Of a DNA stretch of 64,000 nt, positions 4,318-56,053 are shown one piece after another. This stretch comes from a virus. Location: positions 124,001 to 188,000 of the IMG/VR virus record IMGVR_UViG_3300025872_000036. One strand, given 5' to 3'. A program made the translations under genes and the position numbers. The first letter of the stretch is position 1. The number at the start of each line of letters is the position of its first letter. The notes beneath the pieces were generated by a model, which saw nothing but the letters and a program-made list of their open reading frames with translations, did not search any database and was not told where the DNA came from.

Positions 4318-4344
4318 GAAGTTCTCCACATGACAATTTTTTCA

Positions 4345-4352: not shown

Positions 4353-4384
4353 TATAGTATATGTACTAGAACACGAGGAAAAAG

Positions 4385-4831
4385 ATGGAAGTCAAGTATC
4401 GAATAATTGATGTTGATCCCAATCAGCACTCTATCATCGTTAGATATTATACAAATGTATTGACAGAAGATAGTTTGGCCATTTCGTTCAATACCGACGG
4501 ATCAATTGCAAGAAGAGCAGATGGCTCTCCGCAAAGATGTCAAACAGACTATCACATCAATATATGGAAAACAGAAACACCGCCAACGGAAGAAGAAATA
4601 CAAAAGATTGCGAATGATTCCGCTCCATATGACTGGTTCAAGTTGAAACACGACATTTTGGATCCAAACATAGATACATCTCTATCAAATGTTTCGTCTC
4701 TTGTTGGTAAAGAATTTGCAGCAATAAAACCTGTTATTGCTATCGTTGAAGAAAAAACAACAGAAGAAAACATTGAAAACGAGATTCAAAAAATAATCGA
4801 TTCACTAACAGCAAATACATCAAATACCTAA
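4385..4831 (+). CDS. conserved phage protein of fibre region, unknown function
   Basis: A 148-residue protein with AGGAAAAAG before the ATG. It begins MEVKYRIIDVDPNQHSIIVR and continues with a beta-rich stretch (YYTNVLTEDSLAISFNTDG), then a helical acidic C-terminal half (VEEKTTEENIENEIQKIIDS). Openings of the type YkI..VD...HSIvVRyyTd are seen in small phage proteins encoded near fibre genes, but I cannot name a domain. It has its own late promoter and precedes the PP-loop gene. A role in fibre assembly is possible from position only. Confidence 0.55.
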   Translation: MEVKYRIIDVDPNQHSIIVRYYTNVLTEDSLAISFNTDGSIARRADGSPQRCQTDYHINIWKTETPPTEEEIQKIANDSAPYDWFKLKHDILDPNIDTSLSNVSSLVGKEFAAIKPVIAIVEEKTTEENIENEIQKIIDSLTANTSNT

Positions 4832-4846
4832 TTAGTTTTTTTCGTC

Positions 4847-6022: not shown

Positions 6023-6052
6023 AATAGCATTTGTCTTGTTTTTCTTGATATA

Positions 6053-6059
6053 CTAAATA
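6053..6059 (+). promoter_or_regulatory. putative late promoter CTAAATA
   Basis: TACTAAATAG lies 17 bases before the ATG at 6077. It differs from TATAAATA by the first part of the octamer; the same CTAAATA variant precedes the tail tube gene (28322) and the gene at 50327, which supports it as a local variant of the late element. Confidence 0.5.
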
Positions 6060-6076
6060 GTCAAAAAGGCACGAAG

Positions 6077-6412
6077 ATGGCATCTTACGCGGAACTAATA
6101 GTCGATCAGGGCTCTACTTTTAGCACGATTTTGACGCTAACTGACGATACAACCAATTTACCGATTAATGTTTCGGGTTATTCAATCAATGCAAATATCA
6201 AGAAATCATATTATTCTGCAAACAATACTGCAGTTTTCACTTCTGTAATAAATGATGCTGCAAATGGAAATGTAAGTATTTCACTTTCGGCAGACACTTC
6301 CTTAAATATAAAGGCAGGTAGATATGTTTATGATGTAAAAACAACAAGCACGGGAAATGTTGTTACTAGAATTATTGAGGGTATTCTAACGGTAACACCA
6401 AGAGTATCATGA
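6077..6412 (+). CDS. small beta-rich virion structural protein
   Basis: A 111-residue protein, MASYAELIVDQGSTFSTILT, followed by alternating strands and a conserved-looking end AGRYVYDVKTTSTGNVVTRI and EGILTVTP. This pattern (DQG.TF....l.......v.ltG.......r.......GrYvYDv......v.Ri.eG...vtP) is familiar from small structural proteins of T4-like marine phages encoded just before fibre genes. A homologue may act as a fibre or baseplate connector, but the function is not known. It is two bases upstream of the next small structural gene and starts a transcription unit behind a putative late promoter. Confidence 0.6.
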   Translation: MASYAELIVDQGSTFSTILTLTDDTTNLPINVSGYSINANIKKSYYSANNTAVFTSVINDAANGNVSISLSADTSLNIKAGRYVYDVKTTSTGNVVTRIIEGILTVTPRVS

Positions 6413-6413
6413 T

Positions 6414-6611
6414 ATGGCAATATCCGTAAAAATAAATTCGCAGAATCAACAAAAAGTGAGAACTATCGCACCTGTTGCAGCGGCTACTTTAGTAGGGCTT
6501 ACCGATATTTCAATTGTAGATTCCGTAAATAATGCCACAGTTGTATACAATACAAATACATCAAAATATGAAATAAAAGCACTTCCTGTAATATTTGGCG
6601 GTACGTTCTAA
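6414..6611 (+). CDS. small virion structural protein
   Basis: A 65-residue protein, MAISVKINSQNQQKVRTIAP, with the centre LVGLTDISIVDSVNNATVVY and the end FGGTF. The pattern L.dv(d)...vnn.tlvYn..t.kYe.k.lP...GGTF is recognisable from short proteins that accompany fibre genes in T4-like marine phages. The stop shares its last base with the ATG of the fibre gene at 6611, indicating coupled translation. The function is not known; it may be a peptide-sized virion component or be joined to fibre assembly. Confidence 0.6.
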   Translation: MAISVKINSQNQQKVRTIAPVAAATLVGLTDISIVDSVNNATVVYNTNTSKYEIKALPVIFGGTF

Positions 6612-16030: not shown

Positions 16031-19000
16031 ATGATTCCGGGCAGTGTTCATCCTCTTCTTGCAGGTGGAACGAGTTATTCTATAGCATATTCAATGCGTT
16101 TTAGACCAGGCAGTAGTGTTTTGTCTAGAAGTTTGGCTGCAAGTGGAAATCTTGATAAATGGACATGGAGTTGTTGGATCAAGCGAGGTGGTCCTTTTGC
16201 AACTTTTTATCCTTTATTAGCTGGAACAATAGGTGGAAGCACATATTATCAATCTGTTTTTGGTATAAATTCATCAGATCAACTTTGGTATTATCAATTT
16301 ACAAATGCTGTTGGTTACTATGTAAACGTAACAAGCACTGGAGTTTTACGGGATCCATCAGCTTGGTATCATATCGTTTTGAAGTATGATCGTCTTGGAT
16401 CAAATATGGTGGCTTGGGTAAACAATCAAGAATATATAAACACATCTTCATATACCACAACAGTTCAGTATATAAATTCTTCTTCAGCCACTCAATATTA
16501 TGGTAACTACACATATCAGAGTAATCCTGGCGGTGTTTATGATGGCTATATGTCTGATTTACATTTCATTGATAATCAAGCATTGACGCCGTCTTCTTTT
16601 GCTGAAACAGATCCCGTAACTGGTGTTTGGAGACCAAAAAAATATCTTGGAACTTATACAGGAACAAGTCATAGACTAGAGTTTGCAAATAGTTCAAACT
16701 TTGGCGTAGACACCAGCGGAAATGCAAACAATTGGACTCAAAGTGCTGGTGTTGCATCAACTGATCAAATGACTGATACACCCACATTGAATTATGCTAT
16801 TTTAAACGTTGTAGATAAAGGTACTAGCATAACAACAGCGAATGGTAATTTACAAGTAAAAAATTCTAGTGGTGGTTCCTTTGAAAGAATAAGATCGTCT
16901 ATTGGTATGACCACAGGAAAATGGTATGCTGAGTTTGTAATTAATTCAGAAGGTAATCCGAGTAGAATTCAGTCAGGTTTAATGTCGGGTTCGGCCAGTA
17001 TTACTATAAGTTATCTTGGCAACGGCGATGCTCTATCCTGGTCAATATTGGAAAGCGTCGGAAGTCTTTATAAAATAACTAATAGTACTACAACATTGTA
17101 TGTTTCTGGAGGAACTTTAGATCCTGGAGATATACACATGTTAGCCTATGACGCGGATGCTGGAAAATTTTGGTACGGAAAAAATGGCTCTTGGTTTGCT
17201 AGTGGAAATCCCGCCGCAGGAACTAATGAAATGTTTTCTGGTGTTTCTGTTTCAGGTCAAGCCATATTTTTTGCATCAAGTGCTTATAATACATCGGACT
17301 CTGGTACTTGGAATTTTGGTCAAAGACCCTTCGTTTATACCCCACCAACAGGATTTGTGGCACTAAATTCAAATAATCTTTTAGCACCAACAATCAAAAA
17401 AGGCAATACATATTTTGATGTAATCACATATACAGGTAATGGATCAACATCAAATGTTAGTATTACAGGTACAGCTTTTACACCAGATTTTATTTGGTTC
17501 AAGAGAAGAAATTCAACAACGAATGGTGATCATGTAATAATAGACAGTTCACGTTTTAGTGGATTGACTGCAGCAAATACATTTATTTCTAATACAGGAT
17601 TGAATTGGGCTGGTGATACTGCAAATTGGCAATGGGGTATTGACACAGCAAATTCTGGTGTGAGAGGTGGCGGATCTCTTGGAACAAATGTAAGAACTGG
17701 CATATATTATGATGTTGATATTGATGCAAATACTCCATTTGAAGTTGAATATCAATTAAGAGGTATTGACGCAGCAAATTCTGCGGGTATAGTTGCAATT
17801 TATAGAAAAGAAGATCAGGGAAATATAGGAACTACCGGTAATCGCTTTGCATTAGGCATGTTTTCTCAAACATCTACTCATTGGGTCGGTGGTGTAGATC
17901 CTGCGCCAACTATTGGACTTTCATTTCAGCATTCAAGTACACCAGCGGCTGAAGCAGCTGAAGAAAAGTACGCAAATGTTGTCTCGTTGACATCAAATGT
18001 CGCAACGACTAACGTGTTTGTACTTACTCGCGAAGCCGATGGTAACTTGAGAGCGTATAGAACAAACTCATCCGGAAATCGTATTTTGGTCAAGACACAT
18101 TATGAAAAAACAAATTCAGCAATGAGGGTTGCCATAGGATCTGGTTCAGAAGGTAATTTCTTAGGTCTTCAATATCTAAAAATAAATCTAGTTGGTGCAA
18201 GTTCTACGGCCACAAGATATTCTTCTCAATACACAAATCTTACTACATTTGACAAGATTGAAGAAGAGTTTGTTTCATTTAACTCAAATGGATTTACAAT
18301 TAAAAATAATGGAATTAATGCTGCAGCTGATGGTGCTAGAATAACTTCACGATTAAATATAAACACAGCAACTATGGTGTCGTGGGCATGGAAAAAAAGT
18401 CCTACATCAGGATTTGACATTGTCACATATACGGGAACTGGGGCAAACACAAATGTAAGTCATTCTCTTGGTGTTGCACCATCAATGATAATTGTCAAAC
18501 AACGCGCATCAAATACAACAACTAATTGGGCTGTTTGGCACACCAGCATTGCAAACACAAATTATCTTTTGTTGAATGGCACTGCTGCAGCAGCCGCGGG
18601 AGCGACATATTGGAATAATATAACTGCAAATTCTACAACGTTTAGTCTAGGTACTCATCTTGATGTAAATTTCAATAATGCCAGATATGTTGCTTATCTT
18701 TGGTCTGAGGTTGCAGGATTTAGTAGATTTGGATCATATGTTGGAAATAATAGTACAGATGGTCCGTTTGTTTGGTGTGGATTTAGACCAAGATTTTTAC
18801 TTCTTCGCACAAACGCATTGGCAAATTGGGTTTTAGTTGATGCTGTAAGAAGTACAACAAATCCTATATCATTGTCTCTACAAGCCGATAACACTACTGT
18901 AGAGACAAGTTTCGCATATTTAGATATTTTATCTAATGGATTTAAAATTAAAAGTACATCTGGTGGCGGAATAAATTCAGCATCAACAACAACATTTTTT

Positions 19001-43498: not shown

Positions 43499-43522
43499 TG
43501 TTTTTTATCATAGGATATCGTG

Positions 43523-44755
43523 ATGTACCAAAAATATACCGTTGATGATGTAAAGAAGTCTTCCGCTCGTAAATTGTTCAATGTGATTTCCACGTTTGCT
43601 GGCGGCGGTGGCTCTTCTACTGGATATCGTCTTGCTGGTGGTAATATCATCGCAATCAATGAATTCGTTGAAGAAGCAATCAAGACATACTCAACGAACT
43701 TTCCTGACACCAAGATCATACCCGGCGACATCAAGAAATTGACTGCAAAAGACTTTCTTGATACAGCTGGACTCAAGCCTGGCGAACTTGATATTCTTGA
43801 TGGATCTCCACCGTGTTCAGCATTCTCTGTTGCAGGTAAGCGCGAGAAGGGTTGGGCTGGACATGTCACAGATACACGCAAGTCATACTTTGACGATGAT
43901 GGTAATATCATTGAAGAAGGCGAACTTCTTGTTCAAGAAGGTATCAAGAAGTACTCTGATGGCAAGACCGTAGAAGCCATTGAAGATCTATTTTTGGAAT
44001 TCATTCGTATCGCAAAAGAGATCAAGCCAAAGGTAATCGTTGCCGAGAACGTCAAAGGCATCACGTTTGGTGAAGCCAAAAGCAAACTATATGAGTTTGT
44101 CAATTCGTTTGAAAAGATTGGATATCAAGTTACATATCAGGTATTGAATGCAGCAGATTTTGGTGTGCCACAAGCAAGAGAGCGTACTCTATTTGTCTGC
44201 ATACGCGAAGATGTATGTGATGCAATTGGCTTGAACTTCCTCAATATTCACTCTACTGTTTTTCCTAATGCAACATATGCAAAGCACATATCTTTGCGCG
44301 AGGCAATTGAAGACATAGAGAATGATCCGAACGAATTGCAGGAACTCTATGACTATGTGCAAAATGGCTTTCAAAAAGATTGGATCACGAAACTACCTTT
44401 CAATCCAACAAGACATACAAAGCCATCGGACAAGGAATTTCGCGATTGGAATCCCAAGGCATCATGCTTCAACATGATTCGCCCATGTCCAGATCTTCCG
44501 TCTCCAACTTTGACTCAGCGCGGACAACAGAAGTCCGTATCTGGCGTGTTTCACTATGCCGAGAATAGAAAGTTCACGATCAAGGAATTGAAGCGTATCA
44601 TGAGTCTACCCGAAGACTTTGTTCTTACAGGCACGTTTGATCAACAGGCTGAGAGAATTGGACGCATGGTTGCACCAAAGATGATGGCTGCTCTTGCAGG
44701 TAGCATCTATGAAAATGTTTTGAAGCCATATAATGATAGCCAAGTTACTAAGTGA
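43523..44755 (+). CDS. cytosine-C5 DNA methyltransferase family, probable carboxymethyltransferase
   Basis: A 410-residue protein with an AGGA ribosome site seven bases before this ATG (a GTG lies three bases upstream). Motif I FAGGGGSSTGYRLAGG, motif IV GSPPCSAFS with catalytic Cys98, motif VI AENVKG with Glu175, and motif VIII QARER from residue 217 are complete, so cytosine C5 chemistry is expected. Motif X is unusual: ERIGRMVAP, with Arg381 where the family has the Asn of IGN(S/A)V. The equivalent Asn in M.MpeI is the residue whose change to Lys was reported to allow carboxy-SAM as donor. With a CmoA-like gene in the same operon, a carboxymethylcytosine product is my inference; plain methylation is the alternative. 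Confidence 0.85.
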   Translation: MYQKYTVDDVKKSSARKLFNVISTFAGGGGSSTGYRLAGGNIIAINEFVEEAIKTYSTNFPDTKIIPGDIKKLTAKDFLDTAGLKPGELDILDGSPPCSAFSVAGKREKGWAGHVTDTRKSYFDDDGNIIEEGELLVQEGIKKYSDGKTVEAIEDLFLEFIRIAKEIKPKVIVAENVKGITFGEAKSKLYEFVNSFEKIGYQVTYQVLNAADFGVPQARERTLFVCIREDVCDAIGLNFLNIHSTVFPNATYAKHISLREAIEDIENDPNELQELYDYVQNGFQKDWITKLPFNPTRHTKPSDKEFRDWNPKASCFNMIRPCPDLPSPTLTQRGQQKSVSGVFHYAENRKFTIKELKRIMSLPEDFVLTGTFDQQAERIGRMVAPKMMAALAGSIYENVLKPYNDSQVTK

Positions 44756-45524
44756 AGAAATAGAAAAAGCATCAAACGATATCAACGTCGCTGTACTTTT
44801 GTCTGGCGGCGTTGATAGCATTTCTGTGGCATTAGCAGCACATCGTGTTGGTAAGAAGATTACTGCATACACGTTTCATCTAAAAGACCAGCCGACATAT
44901 GATGCAAGTAAAGCACAAGAAATAAGTAAGATCATGGGTTGGTCGTGCAAGACGATTGAAATTCCTGTTGACAATGTTATACGGGATTTCATTCGCCTTC
45001 GTCGTGAAGTAGATTGTCAGAAGAAGACACACTATGAATGCTGCTTTCCTTTTCTATATGTCTATCCGCAAATAGAAGAGAAAGAAGTGCTTAGTGGATG
45101 GGCTGCCGATGGTTACTATGGCGTATCCAAGAAAGCCAATCTACACTACAAGCATACGATGGAAAAGTTCAACGAATTTCGTGAAGATTATTTTCTGCTT
45201 GATCACTGTGCTGGCTATCTTTGGCACAAGAGGATTGCTGATATGCACAACAAGATCTTTATCACACCATATCTAACCGAGCCAGTAAAACAGTTTTTTT
45301 GGACCAAAGACTGGTATGAATTGAATCAGCCATTTCAGAAACACCATGTAGTAGAAGCATTTGATGAATTTTCTAGATTTGGTGCCGTAAAGAAACACAT
45401 CAATCTGCAATTGGGCTCAGGTGTTGACAAACTGTTTGAATCTGTTATAATACCTGACAAGACGATCAACTATCGTAATAGAAAACGCATCATGGATATT
45501 TGCAAGGATTGGAGAAATAGATGA
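44733..45524 (+). CDS. asparagine-synthetase-like (AsnB C-terminal domain) amidating enzyme
   Basis: A 263-residue protein overlapping the methyltransferase gene by 23 bases. It has only the synthetase half of AsnB: PP-loop SGGVDS at residues 24-29 and SGWAADGYYG at 121-130, corresponding to the SGxGADExFGGY motif, plus a C-terminal FITPYLTEPVKQFFWTKD region like the R.PFLD...v of AsnB. The N-terminal glutaminase is absent, so ammonia or another amine must be supplied. These enzymes adenylate a carboxylate and form an amide. In this operon the natural candidate is the carboxyl group of carboxymethylcytosine or of carboxy-SAM; that is inference. Confidence 0.8.
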   Translation: MIAKLLSEEIEKASNDINVAVLLSGGVDSISVALAAHRVGKKITAYTFHLKDQPTYDASKAQEISKIMGWSCKTIEIPVDNVIRDFIRLRREVDCQKKTHYECCFPFLYVYPQIEEKEVLSGWAADGYYGVSKKANLHYKHTMEKFNEFREDYFLLDHCAGYLWHKRIADMHNKIFITPYLTEPVKQFFWTKDWYELNQPFQKHHVVEAFDEFSRFGAVKKHINLQLGSGVDKLFESVIIPDKTINYRNRKRIMDICKDWRNR

Positions 45525-46207
45525 CACAAAAATTTACATTTGCCCAGCGCGAAGAGGGTTTTGACAATCACATTAGCCAGTCCATTCGCGGATACAACGA
45601 CTTGATTGGTGATGTCATCAATCTCTCGCAGTATTTTGTAGAGAACGATACTGTCGTCTATGATATCGGCTGTTCAACTGGCAAGATGCTTCGTGCAATG
45701 ATTGGTCAGAACGAGAAAATTGCACCTCGTGCCAATTATGTAGGAATTGAGATTGAAGAAGATTTCTTCAAGTTCTTTGATGAGAATGTTCAGAGTAATT
45801 TGGAGTTCATTCGGAATGATGTGCGTGATGTAAGTTTTGCTGTCAATACATCTTTGATCACTTCTATTTTCACTCTTCAGTTCATGCCCAGACAAGATCG
45901 TCAGGATGTCATCAATCAAATCTATAACTGTTTGATTCCCGGTGGGGCGTTCATCTTTGCCGAGAAGACGATTGGCAACAATCCGATGATTCATGAGATG
46001 CGTACATTCACCTACTATGATTTCAAGAAACTCAGTTTCACCTATGACGATATCATGACGAAGGAAAAGAAACTGCGTTCCATGTTGAAGTCCAATAGTC
46101 GTCAGGAATTGATTGAAATGTGTGAGATTGCTGGATTCAATCCCAATTCAATTGATTCGTTCTGGCAAAACTTTGCGTTTACTGGATTCATTGCAATCAA
46201 GAACTGA
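45521..46207 (+). CDS. cmoA: CmoA-like carboxy-S-adenosylmethionine synthase
   Basis: A 228-residue Rossmann methyltransferase-fold protein overlapping the previous gene by four bases. It follows bacterial CmoA along its length: FDNHISQSIRGYNDLI (CmoA FD...I..S(V/I).GY..I), VVYDIGCSTG at 46-54, FTLQFMP at 117-123, CLIPGGAFIFAEK and DFKK...RSML with Arg186, ending FWQNFAFTGFIAIKN (CmoA W(F)Q.FNF.s.vAlK). CmoA converts SAM and prephenate to carboxy-SAM, normally for tRNA cmo5U34 with CmoB. No CmoB is in the window; the donor is more likely used by the methyltransferase upstream. It is about 20 residues shorter than the E. coli protein. Confidence 0.85.
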   Translation: MTQKFTFAQREEGFDNHISQSIRGYNDLIGDVINLSQYFVENDTVVYDIGCSTGKMLRAMIGQNEKIAPRANYVGIEIEEDFFKFFDENVQSNLEFIRNDVRDVSFAVNTSLITSIFTLQFMPRQDRQDVINQIYNCLIPGGAFIFAEKTIGNNPMIHEMRTFTYYDFKKLSFTYDDIMTKEKKLRSMLKSNSRQELIEMCEIAGFNPNSIDSFWQNFAFTGFIAIKN

Positions 46208-46310: not shown

Positions 46311-48569
46311 ATGATCGAGAAAAAGACACCCACCATTCACCGGGAAGCCAAGTCACAGCTTGCGCGTCTCATGGCCAACGAGAACCTCACGGTCGAGCAT
46401 CGTGCAGTTCGTACAGCGTCCTTCGACACGAATAATCGTGTTCTGACGCTTCCAATCTGGACTGACATGACTGGCGATATCTATGATACGCTGGTTGGTC
46501 ACGAGGTTGGACATGCGCTGGATACTCCAGCGGGTGTCGATGCCATTCTTTCCGCAATCAAGGCGATTGACGCCAACAACATGCATGGCGCCAAGATGTT
46601 CCTCAATGTGGTTGAGGATGCTCGCATTGAAAAGATGGTGCGTCGTCGTTATCCTGGTATGCGTCGTTCCTTCTCTCTCGGCTACAAGCAGCTGTTGGAT
46701 CGGAACTTCTTTGGCACGATTGGTCGTGACCTGAAGACGTACAAGCTGATTGACCGCGTCAATCTGTACTTCAAGCTGGGTTCGGCTGCGATCATTGACT
46801 TCTCTCCCAAGGAGATGGAGTTGGTTCGCATGGTTGACAACAGCGAATCCTTTGAGGACGTTGTCGCCGCAGCCAAGGCGCTCTATCAATATGCCAAGGA
46901 TCATAAGGAAGACCAGCCTGATCAGGACGGCGATCAGGACGAAGACTATGACATGTATCCGGATGACGACGGAAACTATTACATGGAGAGCGAGTCTTCT
47001 GACGAAAATGACGAGGAGGATGAGTCTGACGACGAGACTGGTTCTCCTTCCGATCGGGACGATGAGGACGACGAGTCCATGTCCAAGTCCGAGGCTGAAG
47101 ATGGTGAGGATGGGTCCGATGATGAGGACTCAGATTCTGAGGATGCCTCTGACTCTGAGGATGAGCCGATTGATGATGTAGGCACTTCGGAAAACAATCC
47201 GACTTCCGAGACTCAGGAGTCTTGGGAAAACCAGAAGGACAAGCTGCTCTCTGGTGCGGTTCGCGGTTACCTTTACTGCAACATTCCCGAGATTGATGGT
47301 CATAATTGGATTGTGCCTTACAAGCAGATCCATTATGGAAATGGTAAGACTGGCGAGGGGCGCATCGACGGCCTGTCTACGGTTGTTCAAGCGGAAGGCT
47401 GGAATGGTCTTCGTGGTCCGAACGAGGCCGAGCGTTTTGCCATGCTCAACAAGTTCAAGAGCGAAAATGCACCCATCATTTCCTTCATGGTGAAGGAGTT
47501 TGAAATGCGTAAGGCTGCTGAGCAGTATGCTCGTCAGTCTATCGCCAAGACTGGCGTGATCAACACCAACAAACTCCATACCTACAAGTACAATGACGAT
47601 ATCTTCCGTCGCATCACCAATGTGCCGACTGGCAAGAATCATGGTCTTGTTCTTATTCTGGATTGGTCTGGTTCCATGGGTCAGCAGATTACGGGCACCA
47701 TTGAGCAGCTTCTGAACATGGCACTCTTCTGCCGTCGTGTCCAGATTCCGTTTGAGGTGTTTGCATTCAGCGATGGTTATCACCCGCATCCTGAAGGGGC
47801 AAGTAATTTCAAGTATGATAATGGCGATATGATGATCACCTATGGACTCTCGCTTCTTCAGCTTCTGTCCTCTACCATGAAGCCGAAGGAACTCAATGAT
47901 GCCATGGGCAATCTTCTCGCTCTTGGAGAAAACTTCAGGCCGGGTAATCGCAATACTCGTCCCATGGGGTACTTCCATCTCAATGGAACTCCGCTTGATG
48001 GTGCGTTGCTTTGCCTTCCGAGCATCGTGAATGCTTTCCGCAAGCGTAACAAGCTGCAGATCGTCAATACGATCATCCTTACCGATGGTGAGAATTCCTA
48101 TAGTCCCGAGATCAATGACAAGGAATATGCCCGTTGGGGTAATAAGGTTCTTGTGGTTCGCGACAAGGTGACCAAGGCTGAGTATACCTGTTCTATGCAT
48201 GGTGGTGAAGAACTTACCAAGATTCTCCTCAAGAACCTTGAGGATCGTACCAATGCAAACGTCATTGGTTACTATCTGGTCAGTGGATCTTCTCGTACCC
48301 TGAGGCAGGCTATTAGTCCGTATTTTCCTGACGATATTGAGAATGCGTTCAATAAGTTCAATGAAAAGAGGTACGTGGAGATCACCAGTAGGGGTTACAC
48401 CTACTACTATGTGATCAAGGGTAACAATCTTCAGATTGAAACTGAGGAGCTGGATATCGGTCGTGCAACTTCTGCCAAGGCTATTGCCAAGGCATTTGGA
48501 AAGTACTCCAAGAACAAGTTGGACAATCGTGTCATGCTTTCCAGGTTCATTGAAAAGATTTCGGCTTGA
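46311..48569 (+). CDS. CobT-like protein: HExxH metallopeptidase motif plus VWA domain
   Basis: A 752-residue protein. Residues 64-68 are HEVGH, a zincin HExxH signature, followed by FLNVVEDARIEKMVRRRYPG, typical of the phage CobT-like family. Residues about 195-300 are very acidic (ESESSDENDEEDESDDETGS). A von Willebrand A domain follows with the metal-ion site DWSGS at 451-455 (DxSxS) and IILTDGENS later. Such proteins are paired with MoxR/CobS AAA+ ATPases, as here; despite the name there is no cobalamin pathway in the window. The pair probably forms a chaperone or chelatase/protease machine of unknown target. G+C is higher than in flanking genes. Confidence 0.85.
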   Translation: MIEKKTPTIHREAKSQLARLMANENLTVEHRAVRTASFDTNNRVLTLPIWTDMTGDIYDTLVGHEVGHALDTPAGVDAILSAIKAIDANNMHGAKMFLNVVEDARIEKMVRRRYPGMRRSFSLGYKQLLDRNFFGTIGRDLKTYKLIDRVNLYFKLGSAAIIDFSPKEMELVRMVDNSESFEDVVAAAKALYQYAKDHKEDQPDQDGDQDEDYDMYPDDDGNYYMESESSDENDEEDESDDETGSPSDRDDEDDESMSKSEAEDGEDGSDDEDSDSEDASDSEDEPIDDVGTSENNPTSETQESWENQKDKLLSGAVRGYLYCNIPEIDGHNWIVPYKQIHYGNGKTGEGRIDGLSTVVQAEGWNGLRGPNEAERFAMLNKFKSENAPIISFMVKEFEMRKAAEQYARQSIAKTGVINTNKLHTYKYNDDIFRRITNVPTGKNHGLVLILDWSGSMGQQITGTIEQLLNMALFCRRVQIPFEVFAFSDGYHPHPEGASNFKYDNGDMMITYGLSLLQLLSSTMKPKELNDAMGNLLALGENFRPGNRNTRPMGYFHLNGTPLDGALLCLPSIVNAFRKRNKLQIVNTIILTDGENSYSPEINDKEYARWGNKVLVVRDKVTKAEYTCSMHGGEELTKILLKNLEDRTNANVIGYYLVSGSSRTLRQAISPYFPDDIENAFNKFNEKRYVEITSRGYTYYYVIKGNNLQIETEELDIGRATSAKAIAKAFGKYSKNKLDNRVMLSRFIEKISA

Positions 48570-48594
48570 CATTCCCAATCTTGTATTGTATTCT
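48566..48594 (+). promoter_or_regulatory. sigma70-type promoter before the CobS-like gene
   Basis: TTGACA (48566-48571), 17-base spacer, TATTCT (48589-48594). The -35 overlaps the stop codon of the CobT-like gene. GAGAGGAAATAA precedes the next ATG. Confidence 0.75.
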
Positions 48595-48619
48595 TAGATC
48601 ATAACCTGAGAGGAAATAA

Positions 48620-49831
48620 ATGTCTCTGACCAACAAGCAGATTGCCTTCATCAAGCTGGCAAACGCAAACGGTTTTACCAGCACGATTTCCCGCAAGGAC
48701 GCAAAGGCGCTTTGCAAGGCTAATGACTTCAAGTGGCCGCGATGGATTGCGATTGACGACCAGTATCGTCACGCTCGCGGCGTCTATAGGCTTCCCAAGA
48801 TTGATAGTGAGGTAAGTGTGCCTAAGGTTTCTCGGATTGATACGCCCGTGCAGCAGGCTCCTGCACCGACCATGAATCTTCAGGTTCTTGGTACGAATGT
48901 GGCGGAATCGCTCATTCCAATGCCCAATCGCAAGTATGTGCCATTTGGCAACTTTGCCGATGTTGAGGCTATCATTTCTTCCACTCTATTCTATCCGATC
49001 TATGTCACGGGTCTGTCTGGCAACGGCAAGACCATGATGATTGAGCAGGTCTGTGCCAAGGCTCGGCGCGAGATGGTTCGCGTCAATATCACGGCCGAGA
49101 CTGACGAAGACGATCTTATCGGCGGCTTCCGTCTGATTGATGGTCAGACCGTGTGGCATAATGGTCCTGTGGTCATGGCCATGGAGCGTGGTGCTGTACT
49201 GCTCCTGGACGAGGTTGACCTTGGTTCAATTAAGCTGATGTGCCTTCAGCCCGTGCTTGAGGGTAAGCCGATCTTCATCAAAAAGATCAACAAGCTGGTT
49301 CAGCCTGCCAAGGGCTTCACGGTTGTTGCTACTGCAAACACCAAGGGTAAGGGTTCAGACGATGGTCGCTTCATTGGCACCAACGTGATGAACGAGGCTT
49401 TCCTTGAGCGTTTTTCCATCACCCTTGAGCAGGAGTATCCGCCTGCTGTAACCGAGAAGAAGATCCTTCTCAACATCCTGGATCGCTCTGCGGACAATGA
49501 CAAGGAGTTTGCCGAGCTGCTTATCAAGTGGGCAGAGGCAATTCGCCGCACCTATTATGATGGTGGTGTGACCGAGATCATTTCCACTCGTCGTTTGGTG
49601 CATATCTGCGAGGCGTATAACATCTTCTCCAAGGATCGCAAGAAGGCGATTCAGCTCTGTCTCAATCGGTTTGATGCGGACACCAAGAATTCGTTCATGG
49701 ATCTGTATACCAAGATTGATGCTGAGGTCAATCCTCCTGTGGTTGCTGCGCCTGGCACCGACAGCCCGACTGTTCAGGCTGAGATGTCGCTTGAGGACAA
49801 GATCAAGGCGGCTGACGAAATTCCCTTCTGA
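48620..49831 (+). CDS. cobS: CobS/MoxR-like AAA+ ATPase
   Basis: A 403-residue protein. The N-terminal 60 residues (NKQIAFIKLANANGFTSTIS, RKDAKALCKANDFKWPRWIA) form a small helical domain. The AAA+ core has Walker A GLSGNGKT at 131-138, DEDDLIGGFRLIDGQTVWHN, Walker B VLLLDEVD at 193-200, sensor 1 VVATANTKGKGSDDGRF and the arginine-finger-like NEAFLERFSI. MoxR and CobS ATPases work with VWA proteins, matching the upstream gene. The name cobS is used in cyanophage annotation, but a role in vitamin B12 synthesis is unproven. Confidence 0.9.
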   Translation: MSLTNKQIAFIKLANANGFTSTISRKDAKALCKANDFKWPRWIAIDDQYRHARGVYRLPKIDSEVSVPKVSRIDTPVQQAPAPTMNLQVLGTNVAESLIPMPNRKYVPFGNFADVEAIISSTLFYPIYVTGLSGNGKTMMIEQVCAKARREMVRVNITAETDEDDLIGGFRLIDGQTVWHNGPVVMAMERGAVLLLDEVDLGSIKLMCLQPVLEGKPIFIKKINKLVQPAKGFTVVATANTKGKGSDDGRFIGTNVMNEAFLERFSITLEQEYPPAVTEKKILLNILDRSADNDKEFAELLIKWAEAIRRTYYDGGVTEIISTRRLVHICEAYNIFSKDRKKAIQLCLNRFDADTKNSFMDLYTKIDAEVNPPVVAAPGTDSPTVQAEMSLEDKIKAADEIPF

Positions 49832-49837
49832 AAATAC

Positions 49838-49866
49838 TTGACATTCCATTTCAACATTGATATAAT
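49838..49866 (+). promoter_or_regulatory. perfect-consensus sigma70 promoter
   Basis: TTGACA (49838-49843), exactly 17 bases, TATAAT (49861-49866): full consensus, the strongest host-type promoter visible in the window. It drives the small basic winged-helix gene through a leader of about 75 bases. Confidence 0.9.
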
Positions 49867-49876
49867 GTTGAATAAT

Positions 49877-49906
49877 GGAGCGACGTTCTTGGTTGCTCGT
49901 CACTCC
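49877..49906 (+). other. leader hairpin upstream of winged-helix gene
   Basis: GGAGCGACG pairs with CGTCACTCC (one C-A mismatch) around a 12-base loop, close to the expected transcript start. It may stabilise the message; there is no sign of a known riboswitch. Confidence 0.45.
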
Positions 49907-49946
49907 GTTTCTCTCTAGTGCAACCTTTTGTTATGGAGTAAAATAT

Positions 49947-50216
49947 ATGGCTAAGATCTCTGCTAAGACTCGTATGCTTCAGGCTCTCAAGGGCAATGGC
50001 GCATACAACACCTTCTCGGTTGCTCAGGGTCGCAATCGTTTCGGTGTGACGAATGTTTCAGCTCGTATCGCTGAGCTGCGTCAGGATGGTCATTCCATCT
50101 ATACGAACGTTCGTCGTCGTGGCGATGGCAGCAAGGTCCGCGTCTATCGTCTTGGCACTCCGACCAAGGCCATGAAGGCTGCGGCTCGCAAGACGAAGAC
50201 TCGTCGTTCTGCCTGA
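49947..50216 (+). CDS. small basic winged-helix (HTH_39-like) DNA-binding protein
   Basis: An 89-residue protein beginning MAKISAKTRMLQALKG; a GGAG ribosome site lies nine bases before this ATG, while the longer reading from 49875 crosses the leader hairpin and is unlikely. Residues about 5-70 (YNTFSVAQGRNRFGVTNVSA, RIAELRQDGHSIYTNVRRRG) form a winged helix of the type in which ...r.g..nvsaRi.eLr..G..I appears. The tail (KAMKAAARKTKTRRSA) is Lys/Arg/Ala-rich and histone-H1-like. A perfect promoter and favourable codons suggest high expression. It may coat or bend DNA or act as a regulator; target unknown. Confidence 0.8.
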   Translation: MAKISAKTRMLQALKGNGAYNTFSVAQGRNRFGVTNVSARIAELRQDGHSIYTNVRRRGDGSKVRVYRLGTPTKAMKAAARKTKTRRSA

Positions 50217-50240
50217 TTCAATAGTTCATATTGAGTCCAT

Positions 50241-50266
50241 GAAGGGGAAGAGAAATCTTCCCCTTC
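50241..50266 (+). terminator. rho-independent-like terminator
   Basis: GAAGGGGAAG / CTTCCCCTTC, a perfect 10-bp stem with a 6-base loop, followed by TTCATTTG, a poor T-tract. It ends the winged-helix transcript 25 bases after the stop. Confidence 0.8.
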
Positions 50267-50278
50267 TTCATTTGCTAA

Positions 50279-50285
50279 CTAAATA
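50279..50285 (+). promoter_or_regulatory. putative late promoter CTAAATA
   Basis: CTAAATAGG between the terminator at 50241 and the glycosyltransferase ATG at 50327; same variant as at 6053 and 28322. Confidence 0.4.
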
Positions 50286-50326
50286 GGAGTATGGTTTAGT
50301 AATTACTTTTTTGATTGGAGTACACT

Positions 50327-51142
50327 ATGGAAATTTCTATCTCTGTTGACGAACTACGCAAAAGAAAGTTGTTTATCGCCACACCAATGTATGGTGGTAT
50401 GGCAAATGGACTTTACATGAAGTCCTGTCTAGATCTACAGTCTATACTAAATCAATATGGCGTTGAAGCCAAGTTTTCATTTCTATTCAACGAATCCCTC
50501 ATCACTCGCGCAAGAAATTATTTGACTGATGAGTTTTTGAGAAATGAACAGTTTACTCATCTTCTATTTTTGGATTCGGATATTCACTTTAATCCACAAG
50601 ATGTTGTCACGATGCTTGCACTTGACAAGGACATCATTGGTGGACCATATCCCAAGAAGTCAATCAATTGGGGTAATGTTGCAAACGCCGTAAGAAGCAA
50701 GCCTGATATTGAGGCTGGAGAACTTGAAGGATTGGTTGGCGAATTTGTATTCAATCCTGTTGCTGGAACAAAGCAGTTCTCTATTACTGAACCACTTGAA
50801 GTCATGGAAATCGGAACAGGTTTCATGATGATCAAGCGAGAGGTCTTCAAGAAGTTTGAAGACGCATATCCAGAGTATCGTTACAAGCCAGATCATGTTG
50901 GTCAAAAGCATTTTGACGGCTCGCGATACATTCATGCATATTTTGATACGATCATTGATCGTGGACCAAATGCTCCTGGCTCATCCGAGAGATACCTTTC
51001 AGAAGATTATTTCTTCTGTCAGATGAGCCGTAAAATCGGCATCAAGATTTGGTTGTGCCCGTGGATGAAGACGCAACACGTTGGCACATATGCGTTTACT
51101 GGTGATCTTCCAAGAATTGCACAGTATACGGGACGTATATGA
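50327..51142 (+). CDS. glycosyltransferase-like protein (GT-A type)
   Basis: A 271-residue protein; GGAG lies six bases before this ATG, and the longer TTG reading is unlikely. The N-terminal KLFIATPMYGGMANGLYMKS, then ESLITRARNYLTDEFL, FTHLLFLDSDIHFNPQDVVT (DxD-like metal site) and DIIGGPYPKKSINWGN form a GT-A Rossmann core common in T4-like phages. Near the end SEDYFFCQMSRKIGIKIWLC is typical of the acceptor-binding part. Acceptor unknown: DNA base, virion protein or host glycan. It overlaps the kinase gene by four bases and stands apart from the glycan cluster at 57.7 kb. Confidence 0.75.
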   Translation: MEISISVDELRKRKLFIATPMYGGMANGLYMKSCLDLQSILNQYGVEAKFSFLFNESLITRARNYLTDEFLRNEQFTHLLFLDSDIHFNPQDVVTMLALDKDIIGGPYPKKSINWGNVANAVRSKPDIEAGELEGLVGEFVFNPVAGTKQFSITEPLEVMEIGTGFMMIKREVFKKFEDAYPEYRYKPDHVGQKHFDGSRYIHAYFDTIIDRGPNAPGSSERYLSEDYFFCQMSRKIGIKIWLCPWMKTQHVGTYAFTGDLPRIAQYTGRI

Positions 51143-51747
51143 TTATTGGATTTGTTGGTACTATCGGTAGCGGTAAAGGAACTGCTGGCGATATATTGGC
51201 GCAGCGGGGCTTCTTTACTGAAAGTTTCGCTGCGCCTCTAAAGGATATAACTGCAAGTCTTTTCGGTTGGCCAAGACATCTTGTCGAAGGTGATACAACT
51301 GAGTCTCGCGAATTTCGTGAAACAAGAGACGAGTGGTGGTCCAATAGATTCGGCAAAGATATCACTCCGCGTTTGATATTGCAGCTCATTGGTACTGAGT
51401 GTATGCGCGAGTGTATACACTCAGACTTCTGGGTTGCGTGTCTCGAAAGACGAATAAAGCAGAATCACGATTATGTGATTACAGATGTTCGTTTTCCTAA
51501 CGAGATTGATTCCATTCACAAGATGGGTGGAAAGATTGTAGAGATTCAACGCGGAAAACCTGCGGATTGGTATGTACATGCTTGCATGTATAACAATGGC
51601 GATTCTGGTGTAAAGCCTAGTGCTCATTATTCGGAGTGGGCATGGATGGGATACAAGACTGACTACACATTGAACAATGATGGGTCTTTGGAAGACCTTG
51701 AAAATGACATTGAATTGATGCTTGAGTGCTTGACACCACCAAGGTAA
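51139..51747 (+). CDS. gp1: deoxynucleoside monophosphate kinase gp1
   Basis: A 202-residue kinase (T4 gp1 is 241). P-loop GTIGSGKGT near residues 7-15, then SFAAPLKDITASLFGWPRHL, TPRLILQLIGTECMRECIHS, DFWVACLERRIK and VITDVRFPNEIDSIHKMGGK, all as in phage dNMP kinases. It converts dNMPs, including those from degraded host DNA, to dNDPs. Its 3' end contains the -35 of the sliding clamp promoter. Confidence 0.9.
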   Translation: MIIGFVGTIGSGKGTAGDILAQRGFFTESFAAPLKDITASLFGWPRHLVEGDTTESREFRETRDEWWSNRFGKDITPRLILQLIGTECMRECIHSDFWVACLERRIKQNHDYVITDVRFPNEIDSIHKMGGKIVEIQRGKPADWYVHACMYNNGDSGVKPSAHYSEWAWMGYKTDYTLNNDGSLEDLENDIELMLECLTPPR

Positions 51748-51758
51748 AGTGATACTAT
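51730..51758 (+). promoter_or_regulatory. sigma70-type promoter for the sliding clamp
   Basis: TTGACA (51730-51735), 17-base spacer, TACTAT (51753-51758). Leader of about 22 bases with TATGGAG before the ATG. Confidence 0.7.
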
Positions 51759-51786
51759 TATCTTCATACAACTATGGAGTTTTGTT

Positions 51787-52452
51787 ATGAAATTCTCACA
51801 AGAGACGATGAATGTCTTGAAGAACTTCTCCCAAATCAATCAGGGAATCTTCTTCAAGAAGGGTGATGTAGTTTCAACTATCTCACCTCAGAAAAACATT
51901 TTGGCCGAGGCTACAATCAAGGAAAGTTTTCCAAGAGACTTCGGCATCTATGATCTTCCAAACTTTCTGAGTGTGCTTTCTCTTAGCAAGGAAGATCCAG
52001 AAGTTGCTTTTGAAGACAAGCAGCTTACCCTCATTGGCAACAATGGTCGTGCGACGATCACCTATCGTTATACTGATGCATCTATGATTGTTTGTCCGCC
52101 AGACAAGAAGCTGACTGTACCATCTGCAACGGTATCGTTTGATCTTACTGAAGTTGATCTTGCTTGGGTATCTCGTTGTGCTGCAGTACTTCAGCAGCCA
52201 AACGTATCCATCGAGAGTGATGGTGAAAAGGTGTATGTGTCTACATTCGATTCAACAAATGATTCCACACATACACAGAAACTCACGATTGCTGATGGCA
52301 ATGGTGAGACATACAAGTTTGTTCTTCGCACCGAAAACCTGAAGCTGCTGCCAGCAGATTACAAGGTTGAGGCTACCAAGGGAATTATCACATTCTCCGC
52401 GAAGAACTCGGCAATCAAGTATTGGATTGCAACTGAAAAGACAAAGGAGTGA
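51787..52452 (+). CDS. gp45: sliding clamp gp45
   Basis: A 221-residue protein (T4 gp45 is 228). MKFSQETMNVLKNFSQINQG, IFFKKGDVVSTISPQKNILA and the end SAIKYWIATEK match gp45, as does the two-domain length. The trimeric clamp holds the polymerase on DNA and activates late transcription with gp55. It heads the gp45-gp44-gp62-regA run behind its own promoter. Confidence 0.93.
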   Translation: MKFSQETMNVLKNFSQINQGIFFKKGDVVSTISPQKNILAEATIKESFPRDFGIYDLPNFLSVLSLSKEDPEVAFEDKQLTLIGNNGRATITYRYTDASMIVCPPDKKLTVPSATVSFDLTEVDLAWVSRCAAVLQQPNVSIESDGEKVYVSTFDSTNDSTHTQKLTIADGNGETYKFVLRTENLKLLPADYKVEATKGIITFSAKNSAIKYWIATEKTKE

Positions 52453-52455
52453 TCA

Positions 52456-52737
52456 ATGTCTACAATTGGAAACAATAGTGGTGTTCCTTCTCTGGATCCA
52501 GAGGAGATCAAGAAGATTGTTGATGCCGTCAATGTCATCAATGATAGCATGACGCGAGTTGCTGCCGAGCGTGATCTTGTAAAAGAGACAGTCAATAGGA
52601 TTCATGAGGAAACAGGTTTTCCTAAGAAGCTGTTGCGTCGTATTGCAAAGACACATTATCAGAGATCCTTTGAAATGGATCTACAAGAAAATCGTGACTT
52701 TGAAAGCACATACGAGACGATCACCAACAAGAAGTAA
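52456..52737 (+). CDS. small helical protein, possibly DsbA-like DNA-binding
   Basis: A 93-residue protein three bases after gp45. LDPEEIKKIVDAVNVINDSM, TRVAAERDLVKETVNRIHEE and TGFPKKLLRRIAKTHYQRSF form a helical coiled-coil followed by a helix-turn-helix-like turn (fpkkLLrriAk). Similar proteins in T4-like phages are annotated as DsbA, a double-stranded DNA-binding protein near late promoters, but I cannot verify that here. Coupling to the clamp gene is at least consistent with a transcription or replication accessory. Confidence 0.5.
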   Translation: MSTIGNNSGVPSLDPEEIKKIVDAVNVINDSMTRVAAERDLVKETVNRIHEETGFPKKLLRRIAKTHYQRSFEMDLQENRDFESTYETITNKK

Positions 52738-52742
52738 GTTCT

Positions 52743-53162
52743 ATGGCTAAACAGAGATACGCCACATGCACTTGTGAAGGTTGTTACGTCAGATTGCCAA
52801 AAAATGAGGCATATTATGATGATGTAACAGTTGAAATAGGTGGATGGGAAGGATCTTCTGAAGGCTCTTACTCTGGAAGTGGGCGTAGATCATCCAAAAA
52901 TAATTATGGTTGGTCTAGTTATGGGTCTACTCGTAGTTCCAGTTCCAGTAGAACACATTATCGGCATCGTAGATTGTGGTACTGTTTTGACTGCTACAAT
53001 AATCTGCTAGAAGCAAGAGTAAAGGCCGAAGAGGAAAGAGAAGAGCGAGAAAGACGAGAAGCTGAAAGAAGAAGACTTGAAAAAGAGCAGAGAAGACCCT
53101 TTGTTATCTTCATTTGGTTCTGTATAATAACCCTCATCATCATGTTGTTCGCAAAGCCGTAG
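52743..53162 (+). CDS. membrane-anchored zinc-finger-like protein, unknown
   Basis: A 139-residue protein. Cys9, Cys11 and Cys14 near the N terminus and Cys81/Cys84 (YCFDCY) could form a zinc site of the CxxC...CxxC kind. Between them is a low-complexity Ser/Gly/Tyr/Arg stretch (SSEGSYSGSGRRSSKNNYGW). Residues 90-118 are a charged helix (AEEEREERERREAERRRLEK), followed by one membrane segment (PFVIFIWFCIITLIIMLFA). No homologue is recognised. It lies between gp45 and gp44 in the replisome operon, so it could tie replication to the membrane; that is a guess. Confidence 0.6.
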   Translation: MAKQRYATCTCEGCYVRLPKNEAYYDDVTVEIGGWEGSSEGSYSGSGRRSSKNNYGWSSYGSTRSSSSSRTHYRHRRLWYCFDCYNNLLEARVKAEEEREERERREAERRRLEKEQRRPFVIFIWFCIITLIIMLFAKP

Positions 53163-53172
53163 GAGATTTGGA

Positions 53173-54114
53173 ATGTCTAATAATGATCAATTCTTGTGGA
53201 CCGAGAAGTATCGCCCACAGAAAGTTGCAGATTGCATTCTACCAGAAAGCATCAAGAGTGCATTTCAGGAATATGTAAATCAAAAAAACATTCCAAATCT
53301 TCTTTTGACAGGTGGTCCTGGCGTTGGTAAGACGACTATCGCCAAGGCCATGTGCAATGAAGTTGGTTGTGACTTCATGGTCATCAATGGTTCGGATGAA
53401 CGAGGCATTGATGTTCTTCGTACCAAGATCAAGACGTATGCATCTTCCATGAGTTTTTCTGGCGGCAGAAAAGTCGTCATCATTGATGAAGCGGACTATC
53501 TAACGCCAGAAGCACAAGCAGCCATGCGAGCTGCTATTGAAGAGTTTGCATCCAATTGTTCTTTCATCTTTACCTGCAATTACAAGGCTCGCTTGATTGA
53601 AGCCATTCATTCACGTTGTTCCGTGATTGAGTTCAAGATCAAGAATGGCAACAAGGTGAAGATGGCGGCTGGCTTTCTAAAAAGAATTCAGAGTATTCTT
53701 GATCAGGAAAAGATCAAGTATGACAATGGTGCTCTTGTTCAGATCATTCAAAAGCACTTTCCAGACTATCGTCGCGTATTGAATGAGTTGCAGAGATATG
53801 CCGTTCGTGGCGAGATTGACTCTGGCGTACTTGCACAAGTTGGTGATGTCAACCTCAAGGAACTTGTTGGTTTCTTGAAGGAGAAAGACTTCACGGCTAT
53901 GCGTAAGTGGGTTGCGACAAACTCTGATGCTGATCAAAACAAGATCTTCCGTCAGATCTATGATGCGATGTATGATACCATGCAGCCACAGTCTATTCCA
54001 CAGGCTGTGATCGTGTTGGCTGATTATCAATACAAGTCGGCGTTTGTTGCTGATCAAGAAATCAACATGGTTGCATGTTTGACAACCATCATGATGGAGT
54101 GTTCGTTTAAATAA
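53173..54114 (+). CDS. gp44: clamp loader large subunit gp44
   Basis: A 313-residue AAA+ ATPase (T4 gp44 is 319). LWTEKYRPQKVADCILPE, Walker A TGGPGVGKTTIAK, Walker B VVIIDEADYL, sensor 1 FIFTCNYKARLIEAI and the SRC motif (HSRCSVIEF) are all present. Four gp44 and one gp62 load gp45 on DNA. Its stop shares a base with the next ATG, which belongs to an unrelated inserted gene rather than gp62. Confidence 0.96.
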   Translation: MSNNDQFLWTEKYRPQKVADCILPESIKSAFQEYVNQKNIPNLLLTGGPGVGKTTIAKAMCNEVGCDFMVINGSDERGIDVLRTKIKTYASSMSFSGGRKVVIIDEADYLTPEAQAAMRAAIEEFASNCSFIFTCNYKARLIEAIHSRCSVIEFKIKNGNKVKMAAGFLKRIQSILDQEKIKYDNGALVQIIQKHFPDYRRVLNELQRYAVRGEIDSGVLAQVGDVNLKELVGFLKEKDFTAMRKWVATNSDADQNKIFRQIYDAMYDTMQPQSIPQAVIVLADYQYKSAFVADQEINMVACLTTIMMECSFK

Positions 54115-54689
54115 TGCTAAATCCTAGACAGCTTAAAGTATTAAAGTCGTTTAATTGGAATAATATATTTTCCGATGCTCTTGCATGTGATGCCTTAAAC
54201 GAGGCTCAAAATAGATTTTTGAAAGGTAGAATCATAGAGAAATCGATTGAATGGAATAGTAATGGTCATTTGACATACATTGGTGATAAGCATAAGGATT
54301 TTGATTGGGTCGAAGAGAAATTTGAAGTTGAAATGAAAAGTGTAACATCTTATAGGATTTATGGTAAAAAAGGTCAGATAAAAGGAAAATTTGAAATACT
54401 ACTTAGCAGTGTGATGGGCAATAAGAAACAGACACCTATTGAATCCGAAATATGCGATCTTATATTGATACTTTATCGTGATGGTGCATTTGTTCTTGAG
54501 AAAGAAAATGTACTTAAAAACATACAATCTTATGAGGATGGATTACGAGTTAGAGGACATACGTCATGCTTGATTCCATTGACTGGATTAATTCAAGAGA
54601 AAAATATTGTAAAGAATCCAAAGTTTTTGAATTTTCCTATTCACTTGAATAAATTGATAGAGAGTGCTATAAAAGATTCATATGCTTGA
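54114..54689 (+). CDS. candidate PD-(D/E)xK nuclease inserted between gp44 and gp62
   Basis: A 191-residue protein. Residues 56-76 read IGDKHKDFDWVEEKFEVEMK plus S, giving a PD-(D/E)xK-like set Asp64 ... Glu73-x-Lys75 on predicted neighbouring strands, preceded by a helix (NEAQNRFLKGRIIEKSIEWN) of the kind seen in restriction enzymes. Later CDLILILYRDGAFVLEKENV may be the third strand. The gene is strikingly A+T-rich (18 G+C of 60 at 54481-54540 versus 27 of 60 at 53821-53880 in gp44). In T4, gp62 follows gp44 directly, so this looks like an insertion. Restriction enzyme or homing-type endonuclease are both possible; neither is proven. Confidence 0.55.
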   Translation: MLNPRQLKVLKSFNWNNIFSDALACDALNEAQNRFLKGRIIEKSIEWNSNGHLTYIGDKHKDFDWVEEKFEVEMKSVTSYRIYGKKGQIKGKFEILLSSVMGNKKQTPIESEICDLILILYRDGAFVLEKENVLKNIQSYEDGLRVRGHTSCLIPLTGLIQEKNIVKNPKFLNFPIHLNKLIESAIKDSYA

Positions 54690-54700
54690 GGTTTATGATA

Positions 54701-55129
54701 ATGGACTTGTTTAAAGATATTTTACCATCAATTCAAAAGACAAAGAAGGATTTGTCAGATGAGCCAGACTTTAAAAAGTCGTATAATGCATTTGTGGTCA
54801 ATCGTGCGCTATCATATCATGTGGATTCTATACTCCACGCCAATGAAATGAATAGTAGGCATGGATTGGACGAAAATCTACAATATCATTTTTATCTAAA
54901 TAGTATACGATCTATGAAACGCAAGTTTCAGCCGTGGGTCAAAAAAGAGAAGAATGATATTCTGGAGGCCGTAAAAGAGTACTACCAGTTTTCCAGCGCA
55001 AAGGCATTAGAGGCGATGCGTCTTCTCTCCACTGATCAGGTTGATCATATAATAAGTATAACAAAAAAAGGTGGAGTGGGTAATGTGGAGCGTAGAAGAC
55101 ATGGTGGAGGTGACGCTAAAAGAGCGTGA
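54701..55129 (+). CDS. gp62: clamp loader small subunit gp62
   Basis: A 142-residue protein (T4 gp62 is 187; marine relatives are shorter). I use the ATG nine bases after GAGG; another ATG lies six bases upstream. Conserved parts: MDLFKDILPSIQKTKKDL, FVVNRALSYHVDSILHANEM, NLQYHFYLNSIRSMKRKF and QPWVKKEKNDILEAVKEYYQ (the W.kke..d....vkeYy..s..ka motif). It is the fifth subunit of the clamp loader. Its 3' end overlaps the proposed regA start by 47 bases. Confidence 0.88.
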   Translation: MDLFKDILPSIQKTKKDLSDEPDFKKSYNAFVVNRALSYHVDSILHANEMNSRHGLDENLQYHFYLNSIRSMKRKFQPWVKKEKNDILEAVKEYYQFSSAKALEAMRLLSTDQVDHIISITKKGGVGNVERRRHGGGDAKRA

Positions 55130-55490
55130 TGACTTCCTAAAGGTCAAGGAAACATTGACCAGAATTGGCGTAGCCTCAAAGAAGGATCAGACACTCTATC
55201 AATCTTGTCATATTCTTCACAAGCAGGGTAAGTACTATATCGCACATTTCAAGGAGTTATTTGCACTTGATGGCAAGCCAACAAATTTCTCCGAAGGCGA
55301 TATTGCAAGAAGAAACTCAATTGCAAATCTATTGGCTGAATGGGGTCTTGTTGGGCTAGTAAAGCCAGAGAGAACAGCAGATCCAGTATCGCCACTAAAT
55401 CAAATCAAGATACTGGCCTTCAAAGACAAAAATGATTGGCAACTTGTAGCAAAATATAATATTGGTAAGAAAAAGATTGAAACTGAATAA
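55083..55490 (+). CDS. regA: translational repressor RegA
   Basis: A 135-residue protein from this ATG, chosen because GGTGGAG lies six bases upstream; the shorter start MVEVTLKERDDFLKVKETLT at 55101 has the typical RegA N terminus and is equally plausible. YQSCHILHKQGKYYIAHFKE, LFALDGKPTNFSEGDIARRN and SIANLLAEWGLVGLV are strongly RegA-like (T4 RegA is 122). RegA binds near start codons of early phage messages and represses their translation. As in T4, it follows gp62. Confidence 0.93.
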   Translation: MWSVEDMVEVTLKERDDFLKVKETLTRIGVASKKDQTLYQSCHILHKQGKYYIAHFKELFALDGKPTNFSEGDIARRNSIANLLAEWGLVGLVKPERTADPVSPLNQIKILAFKDKNDWQLVAKYNIGKKKIETE

Positions 55491-55507
55491 TTGAAGGAGT
55501 TTATATC

Positions 55508-56053
55508 ATGGCAACAAAATTGAAGTACTACAAGATACATCCGCAAGTACAAGCACCAGTCTATTCAACGACTGATGCTGCTTGTTTTGATATCTTTCTA
55601 TGTACATTTGGTGTAATGTCGTTTGAAGGATATGATGATACGGGAAAGAAGTTTAGTCGGCTATTAACAAGCGATGGTGGTGTAACGATATGTCCAAGAG
55701 ATCGTGTGCTTGCACCCACTGGATTGATCTTTGATATTCCAAAAGAATACTCAGTACGCATTCATCCTCGCTCGGGTCTTTCCTTGAAAGAGGGTCTAAC
55801 GCTTGCAAATGCTGAAGGTGTAATTGATTCTGATTATATGGAAGAAACTTTCGTCATGTTGACAAACATTACAACTAGAAACATAGTTGTACCCAATCTA
55901 TCTAGAATTTGTCAAGGTGAACTTGTACGCAATAATAGAGCAGCATTTGAAGAAGTAAAGGCAAGACCAACACGCGATAACACAAATCGTAAGGGCGGAT
56001 TTGGTTCTACAGGCACAAAGGTACTTGACAATCCTACTGCGAATACTATATAA
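55508..56053 (+). CDS. dut: dUTPase (trimeric type)
   Basis: A 181-residue enzyme with AAGGAG before its ATG. The five motifs are in order: DAACFDI (I), PRSGLSLKEG (II), GVIDSDYMEE (III), RICQGELV (IV) and RKGGFGSTG (V). It hydrolyses dUTP to dUMP, limiting uracil in DNA. An insertion near residues 30-50 (CTFGVMSFEGYDDTGKKFSR) and a short tail after motif V make it a little longer than the usual 150. A promoter for the next unit overlaps its last codons. Confidence 0.92.
   Translation: MATKLKYYKIHPQVQAPVYSTTDAACFDIFLCTFGVMSFEGYDDTGKKFSRLLTSDGGVTICPRDRVLAPTGLIFDIPKEYSVRIHPRSGLSLKEGLTLANAEGVIDSDYMEETFVMLTNITTRNIVVPNLSRICQGELVRNNRAAFEEVKARPTRDNTNRKGGFGSTGTKVLDNPTANTI

Follow-up and report, generated by a model that had tools for sequence, protein, structure and literature searches.

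What would a virus use a homologue of CmoA for, the carboxy-SAM enzyme that acts with CmoB in the tRNA wobble pathway of E. coli? The question arose from a window of 64,000 nucleotides (positions 124,001 to 188,000 of the 196,948-base virus record IMGVR_UViG_3300025872_000036 in IMG/VR), in which the ORF list and family searches placed a CmoA homologue beside a homologue of DNA cytosine C5-methyltransferases (C5-MTases) at 43520-46207. A first-pass annotation of the letters had suggested that carboxy-SAM is reused here outside tRNA or, alternatively, that the enzyme boosts host tRNA modification. We examined the proteins of this locus, their active-site residues and their linkage in other phages.

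An overlapping three-gene unit

The ORF at 45521-46207 on the + strand (228 aa) is real and, as proposed in the first-pass annotation, encodes a CmoA relative, predicted to be a carboxy-SAM synthase. Its best NCBIfam match was TIGR00740 (E 6.2e-28, 98 bits), which covered all except the initial ~13 model positions, and ordinary methyltransferase families gave much weaker matches in the profile search. The best solved structures found by sequence were those of E. coli and Haemophilus CmoA (E ~1e-20; 4gek, E 1.5e-20), and these were also the best solved matches to the predicted fold (4iwn/4gek, TM ~0.8). The CmoA model thus clearly wins over other methyltransferases, even though 98 bits lies under the equivalog cut-off of TIGR00740, which is set at 193 bits. 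The CmoA proteins of Synechococcus phage S-B43 (115.6 bits) and cyanophage S-CRM01 likewise fall under this value and, because the S-B43 enzyme is active, the cut-off describes the bacterial tRNA-pathway clade.

The first-pass annotation had placed cmoA next to a DNA methyltransferase gene. The two do belong to the same overlapping unit, but the gene of a PP-loop ligase, which had been overlooked, sits between them. The unit begins with cmoX (43520-44755, + strand, 411 aa; GTG start codon, alternatively ATG at 43523), predicted to encode a DNA cytosine C5-carboxymethyltransferase. CmoX matched PF00145 with an E value of 5.9e-58, and its best solved structure was 8YF3, the S-B43 protein SpCmoX (E 1.2e-110; next best 9e-26). 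The 3' end of cmoX overlaps by 23 bases with the 5' end of cmoY (44733-45524, + strand, 263 aa), which encodes a predicted stand-alone amide ligase of the asparagine-synthetase (PP-loop) type matching PF00733 (E 5.3e-12), and the cmoY stop codon in turn overlaps the cmoA start by 4 bases (ATGA). The AlphaFold2 model of CmoY (pLDDT 91.5) comprises the synthetase domain only and most closely resembled beta-lactam synthetase (1mc1, Z 23.4) and asparagine synthetase (9b6c, Z 23.3); structural comparison of this model revealed no glutaminase domain. An external amine is thus a more plausible substrate of CmoY than glutamine-derived ammonia.

The CmoA-CmoX-CmoY system of S-B43 was published in December 2025 together with the CmoX crystal structure 8YF3 (Yang et al. 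2025, Nat Commun 17:281, PMC12783734). That work demonstrated carboxy-SAM synthesis, formation of 5-carboxymethylcytosine in DNA, its ligation to glycine and the presence of the modified base in virion DNA. The window proteins are 49% (CmoA, compared with the experimentally active SpCmoA), 53% (CmoX) and 51% (CmoY, over its full length) identical to their S-B43 counterparts; in both phages the genes overlap and CmoB is missing, and the two systems share the SPPC motif, an arginine in motif X, a Glu/Arg pair in CmoA and the PP loop. They differ in gene order, which is X-Y-A in the window and A-Y-X in S-B43, and in an extra stretch after motif IV of the window CmoX. Moreover, the window phage is only distantly related to S-B43 at the DNA level. 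The search for DNA-level relatives gave just a short match of 73% to Synechococcus phages, in a region that carries a porphyrin biosynthesis annotation, and psbA/psbD (PF00124), which we sought as a sign of a cyanobacterial host, were not found in the record, which may be incomplete. The same search scope yielded no ParB-domain partner of the kind reported near many CmoX genes (PMC12783734).

Residues predicted to hold the carboxylate

CmoX carries the catalytic features of a C5-MTase, namely SPPC at 96-99 with the nucleophile C99, the ENV glutamate Glu176 and the RxR arginines R220/R222. Its motif X reads ERIGRMV, whereas ordinary C5 enzymes have Q-x-GNSV, and in the alignment R382 corresponds to SpCmoX R350 and to M.HhaI N304, so that an arginine replaces the usual asparagine. 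In the 8YF3 structure, Arg350 at the M.HhaI Asn304 site contacts the carboxymethyl group of carboxy-SAM, whose carboxylate it binds, and wild-type SpCmoX accepted carboxy-SAM only and did not use SAM (PMC12783734). The SpCmoX residues F25, E47, F48, D69, SPPC/C98 and R350 are all conserved in the window protein. A related case, as summarised in PMC12783734, is the engineered carboxymethyltransferase M.MpeI N374K, in which a basic residue in place of the motif X Asn likewise permits use of carboxy-SAM; in that account, M.MpeI N374K is engineered, CG-specific and has no ligase, whereas the window CmoX is natural and encoded with its own cofactor synthase. An extra ~20-30 residues follow motif IV in the window CmoX when it is compared with SpCmoX, so that the DNA motif it recognises may not be GC. 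Counts of four-base palindromes in the window showed no simple pattern revealing a modified motif.

For CmoA, the residues that bind the carboxylate had been named among the points to check, their loss counting against the reading, and the sequence RSML had been taken to match the region of E. coli CmoA Arg199, which forms a salt bridge to the carboxylate of carboxy-SAM (PMC3663124). This argument had to be discarded as a register shift of 4 residues: in the alignment, E. coli R199 corresponds to window E182, and window R186 corresponds to E. coli E203. Arg199 is thus replaced by a glutamate, but this does not refute the proposed function, for the active enzyme of S-B43 shows the same Glu/Arg arrangement. 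E182 and R186, both invariant, lie one turn apart in a single predicted helix (175-188), with modest model confidence around Arg186 (pLDDT ~68). An arginine occupies exactly one of the two positions equivalent to R199 and E203 in 23 of 23 aligned CmoA sequences and in 85 of 85 sequences of a larger set. From these alignments, the carboxylate-holding arginine of phage CmoA has likely been relocated, with Arg186 taking the role of Arg199. Of the other cofactor contacts of the E. coli enzyme, Y39, D62, G64, S66, F137 and E164 have identical counterparts in the window protein (Y25, D48, G50, S52, F121 and E148), and N90 and N132 are conserved neither there nor in S-B43 CmoA.

S-B43 CmoA is a faster carboxy-SAM synthase than E. 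coli CmoA, with a kcat of 2.33 versus 0.23 per second; the main text of the paper reporting these values does not mention Arg199 (PMC12783734). A wider proposal, which we put forward tentatively and consider rather improbable as a whole, is that a phage branch of CmoA has moved its carboxylate arginine by one helical turn (R199/E203 to E182/R186), that this charge swap is possibly tied to the turnover of the S-B43 enzyme, and that CmoY may use some amine in place of glycine and so yield an undescribed base. The probable relocation of the arginine is a warning against accepting or rejecting carboxy-SAM synthases by Arg199 alone.

Linkage across phages and the target of carboxy-SAM

We analysed 80 IMG/VR contigs fetched by CmoX alone and 80 fetched by CmoA. 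In the CmoX-fetched contigs, CmoA was adjacent in 74 of 80, with the remaining 6 ending within ~1.1 kb of the methyltransferase gene, and CmoY was present in 67 of 80. The motif X arginine was found in all 79 readable CmoX rows of this set, among them the window, and every row has the catalytic Cys, Glu and Arg. The CmoA-fetched contigs contained CmoX (77/80) and CmoY (41/80) within the fetched stretch, the rest including contig ends. Both X-Y-A and Y-X-A orders occur among phages besides the A-Y-X order of S-B43, and since gene order varies in this way, adjacency outlives rearrangement. S-CRM01 (HQ615693) resembles the window in having adjacent CmoA (50% identical) and CmoX (51%) with the motif X arginine, but differs in that no CmoY adjoins the pair and none was found in its record.

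Among 18 C5-MTases compared from annotated phages, all 7 with the motif X arginine came from records with CmoA, in what is a small sample in which some of the 7 records had been chosen for having CmoA; all 9 enzymes from records without CmoA had Asn, Met or Leu at this site (Fisher p 0.002 for the association). We regard this co-occurrence of sequence features as support rather than proof.

Several phages depart from this pattern. In two Staphylococcus phages, vB-SscS-F1 (5461-6468 of its stretch) and an SPbeta-like phage (6675-7673), CmoA lies beside a C5-MTase whose motif X aligned as GGVI, with a glycine at the site in question; if these enzymes use carboxy-SAM, the carboxylate must be held otherwise, and they would escape the published R350 filter. 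Met takes the place of the motif X Asn in the C5-MTases of Cellulophaga phage phi18:3 and Flavobacterium phage Fpv10, whose records have no CmoA. Methylophilales phage Melnitz-3 encodes a CmoX-like C5-MTase (4010-5227 of its stretch; ~41% identical) with Leu in motif X, near a RimK-like ATP-grasp gene and a 2OG-Fe oxygenase, again with no CmoA in the record. Streptomyces phage TurkishDelight (178-1449 and 1452 onwards of its stretch) has, in this order, a ParB-like gene, a CmoX with the motif X arginine, a gene with a glutamine-amidotransferase domain, likely an ammonia-type ligase variant, and CmoA further on. Alcaligenes phage Afa-NA1 (5917-6669 and 9142-10461 of its stretch) has CmoA but no C5-MTase in its record; near CmoA lie genes for a DNA adenine methylase, a NUDIX hydrolase, a dTMP kinase and a thymidylate synthase, and this phage possibly holds a different user of carboxy-SAM. 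The authors of PMC12783734 found no candidates for adenine carboxymethyltransferases.

Two other readings of the window locus deserve consideration. The phage CmoA might raise carboxy-SAM for wobble modification (cmo5U34) of host or phage tRNA and so improve decoding. The first-pass annotation had reported neither CmoB nor tRNA genes in the window, which holds; outside the window, however, the record carries 33 tRNA genes (positions 47902-55875) covering most amino acids, several of them with U34 anticodons (TGC, TAC, TGG, TGT, TGA and TAG), and a tmRNA call of the permuted type (17147-17559 of another stretch of the record; tag ANDNYASEMALAA). Extra carboxy-SAM could also be used by a host CmoB. 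Yet profile searches with NF011650 and PF08003 detected no CmoB in the whole, possibly incomplete, record, so that the absence seen in the window extends to all of it, and CmoA is instead linked to a DNA enzyme: cmoA forms one overlapping series with the ligase and CmoX genes, and almost all relatives repeat its linkage to CmoX. Besides, the motif X arginine would make CmoX a dedicated user of carboxy-SAM. Because of the gene linkage and this residue, DNA is far likelier than tRNA as the target, and we consider modification of tRNA as the main role very unlikely, although in a host with CmoB part of the carboxy-SAM could be diverted to modification of host tRNA.

Less probable still is that both enzymes are ordinary, CmoA being a SAM-dependent methyltransferase of small molecules and CmoX a DNA cytosine methyltransferase making 5-methylcytosine. 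Generic methyltransferase Pfam models do match CmoA, and the residue aligned with E. coli R199 is no arginine, but CmoA-specific models and structures clearly win, the S-B43 orthologue makes carboxy-SAM despite sharing this E/R pattern, and CmoX has Arg in place of Asn, as does SpCmoX, which rejected SAM. Reuse of carboxy-SAM beyond tRNA, the reading preferred in the first-pass annotation, is supported by the Asn-to-Arg exchange at the carboxylate site of CmoX, by the linkage of CmoA and CmoX and by the orthology of CmoA, CmoX and CmoY to the S-B43 set, for which carboxymethylation of DNA was shown by experiment.

A predicted DNA hypermodification pathway

Taken by analogy with S-B43, the three overlapping genes can with high confidence be read as one DNA hypermodification cassette leading from carboxy-SAM via 5-carboxymethylcytosine to an amide, probably of glycine. 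We infer the enzymatic functions of the window proteins from their sequences, and we likewise infer the reactions in the window phage, its DNA motif, the amine and an anti-restriction benefit. CmoA would make carboxy-SAM from SAM and prephenate drawn from the host shikimate pathway. CmoX would then flip the cytosine out, Cys99 would attack C6, and the carboxymethyl group, held in place by Arg382, would pass from carboxy-SAM to C5. Finally, CmoY would activate the carboxylate of the resulting 5-carboxymethylcytosine with ATP and add an amine, giving 5-glycylcarboxymethylcytosine if this is glycine, and the modified phage DNA would resist host restriction nucleases.

The amine is the least certain step of this pathway. 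SpCmoY ligates glycine to 5-carboxymethylcytosine with ATP (PMC12783734), and by analogy the window CmoY most likely adenylates the 5-carboxymethyl group and joins glycine to it. With CmoA and CmoX acting as proposed, CmoY might instead join another alpha-amino acid, ammonia or another small amine to give a different base, as its identity to SpCmoY is just 51%; that identity nonetheless spans the full length of the two proteins and the missing glutaminase domain makes glutamine-derived ammonia unlikely, so we rate a non-glycine product as a minority possibility and favour the glycine amide.

The cassette is very probably a further, well-diverged member of the system already published, to which it adds little that is new: one more arrangement of the genes, the exchanged residues of CmoA, and a question over which amine and DNA motif are used. 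The window shares with the E. coli CmoA/CmoB pathway a CmoA homologue and the carboxy-SAM cofactor, but it has no CmoB, DNA would be the target, and CmoA carries Glu at the Arg199 site with an Arg four residues on. For annotation, this means that a phage 'CmoA/tRNA methyltransferase' beside a C5-MTase with a motif X arginine belongs to DNA rather than tRNA chemistry.
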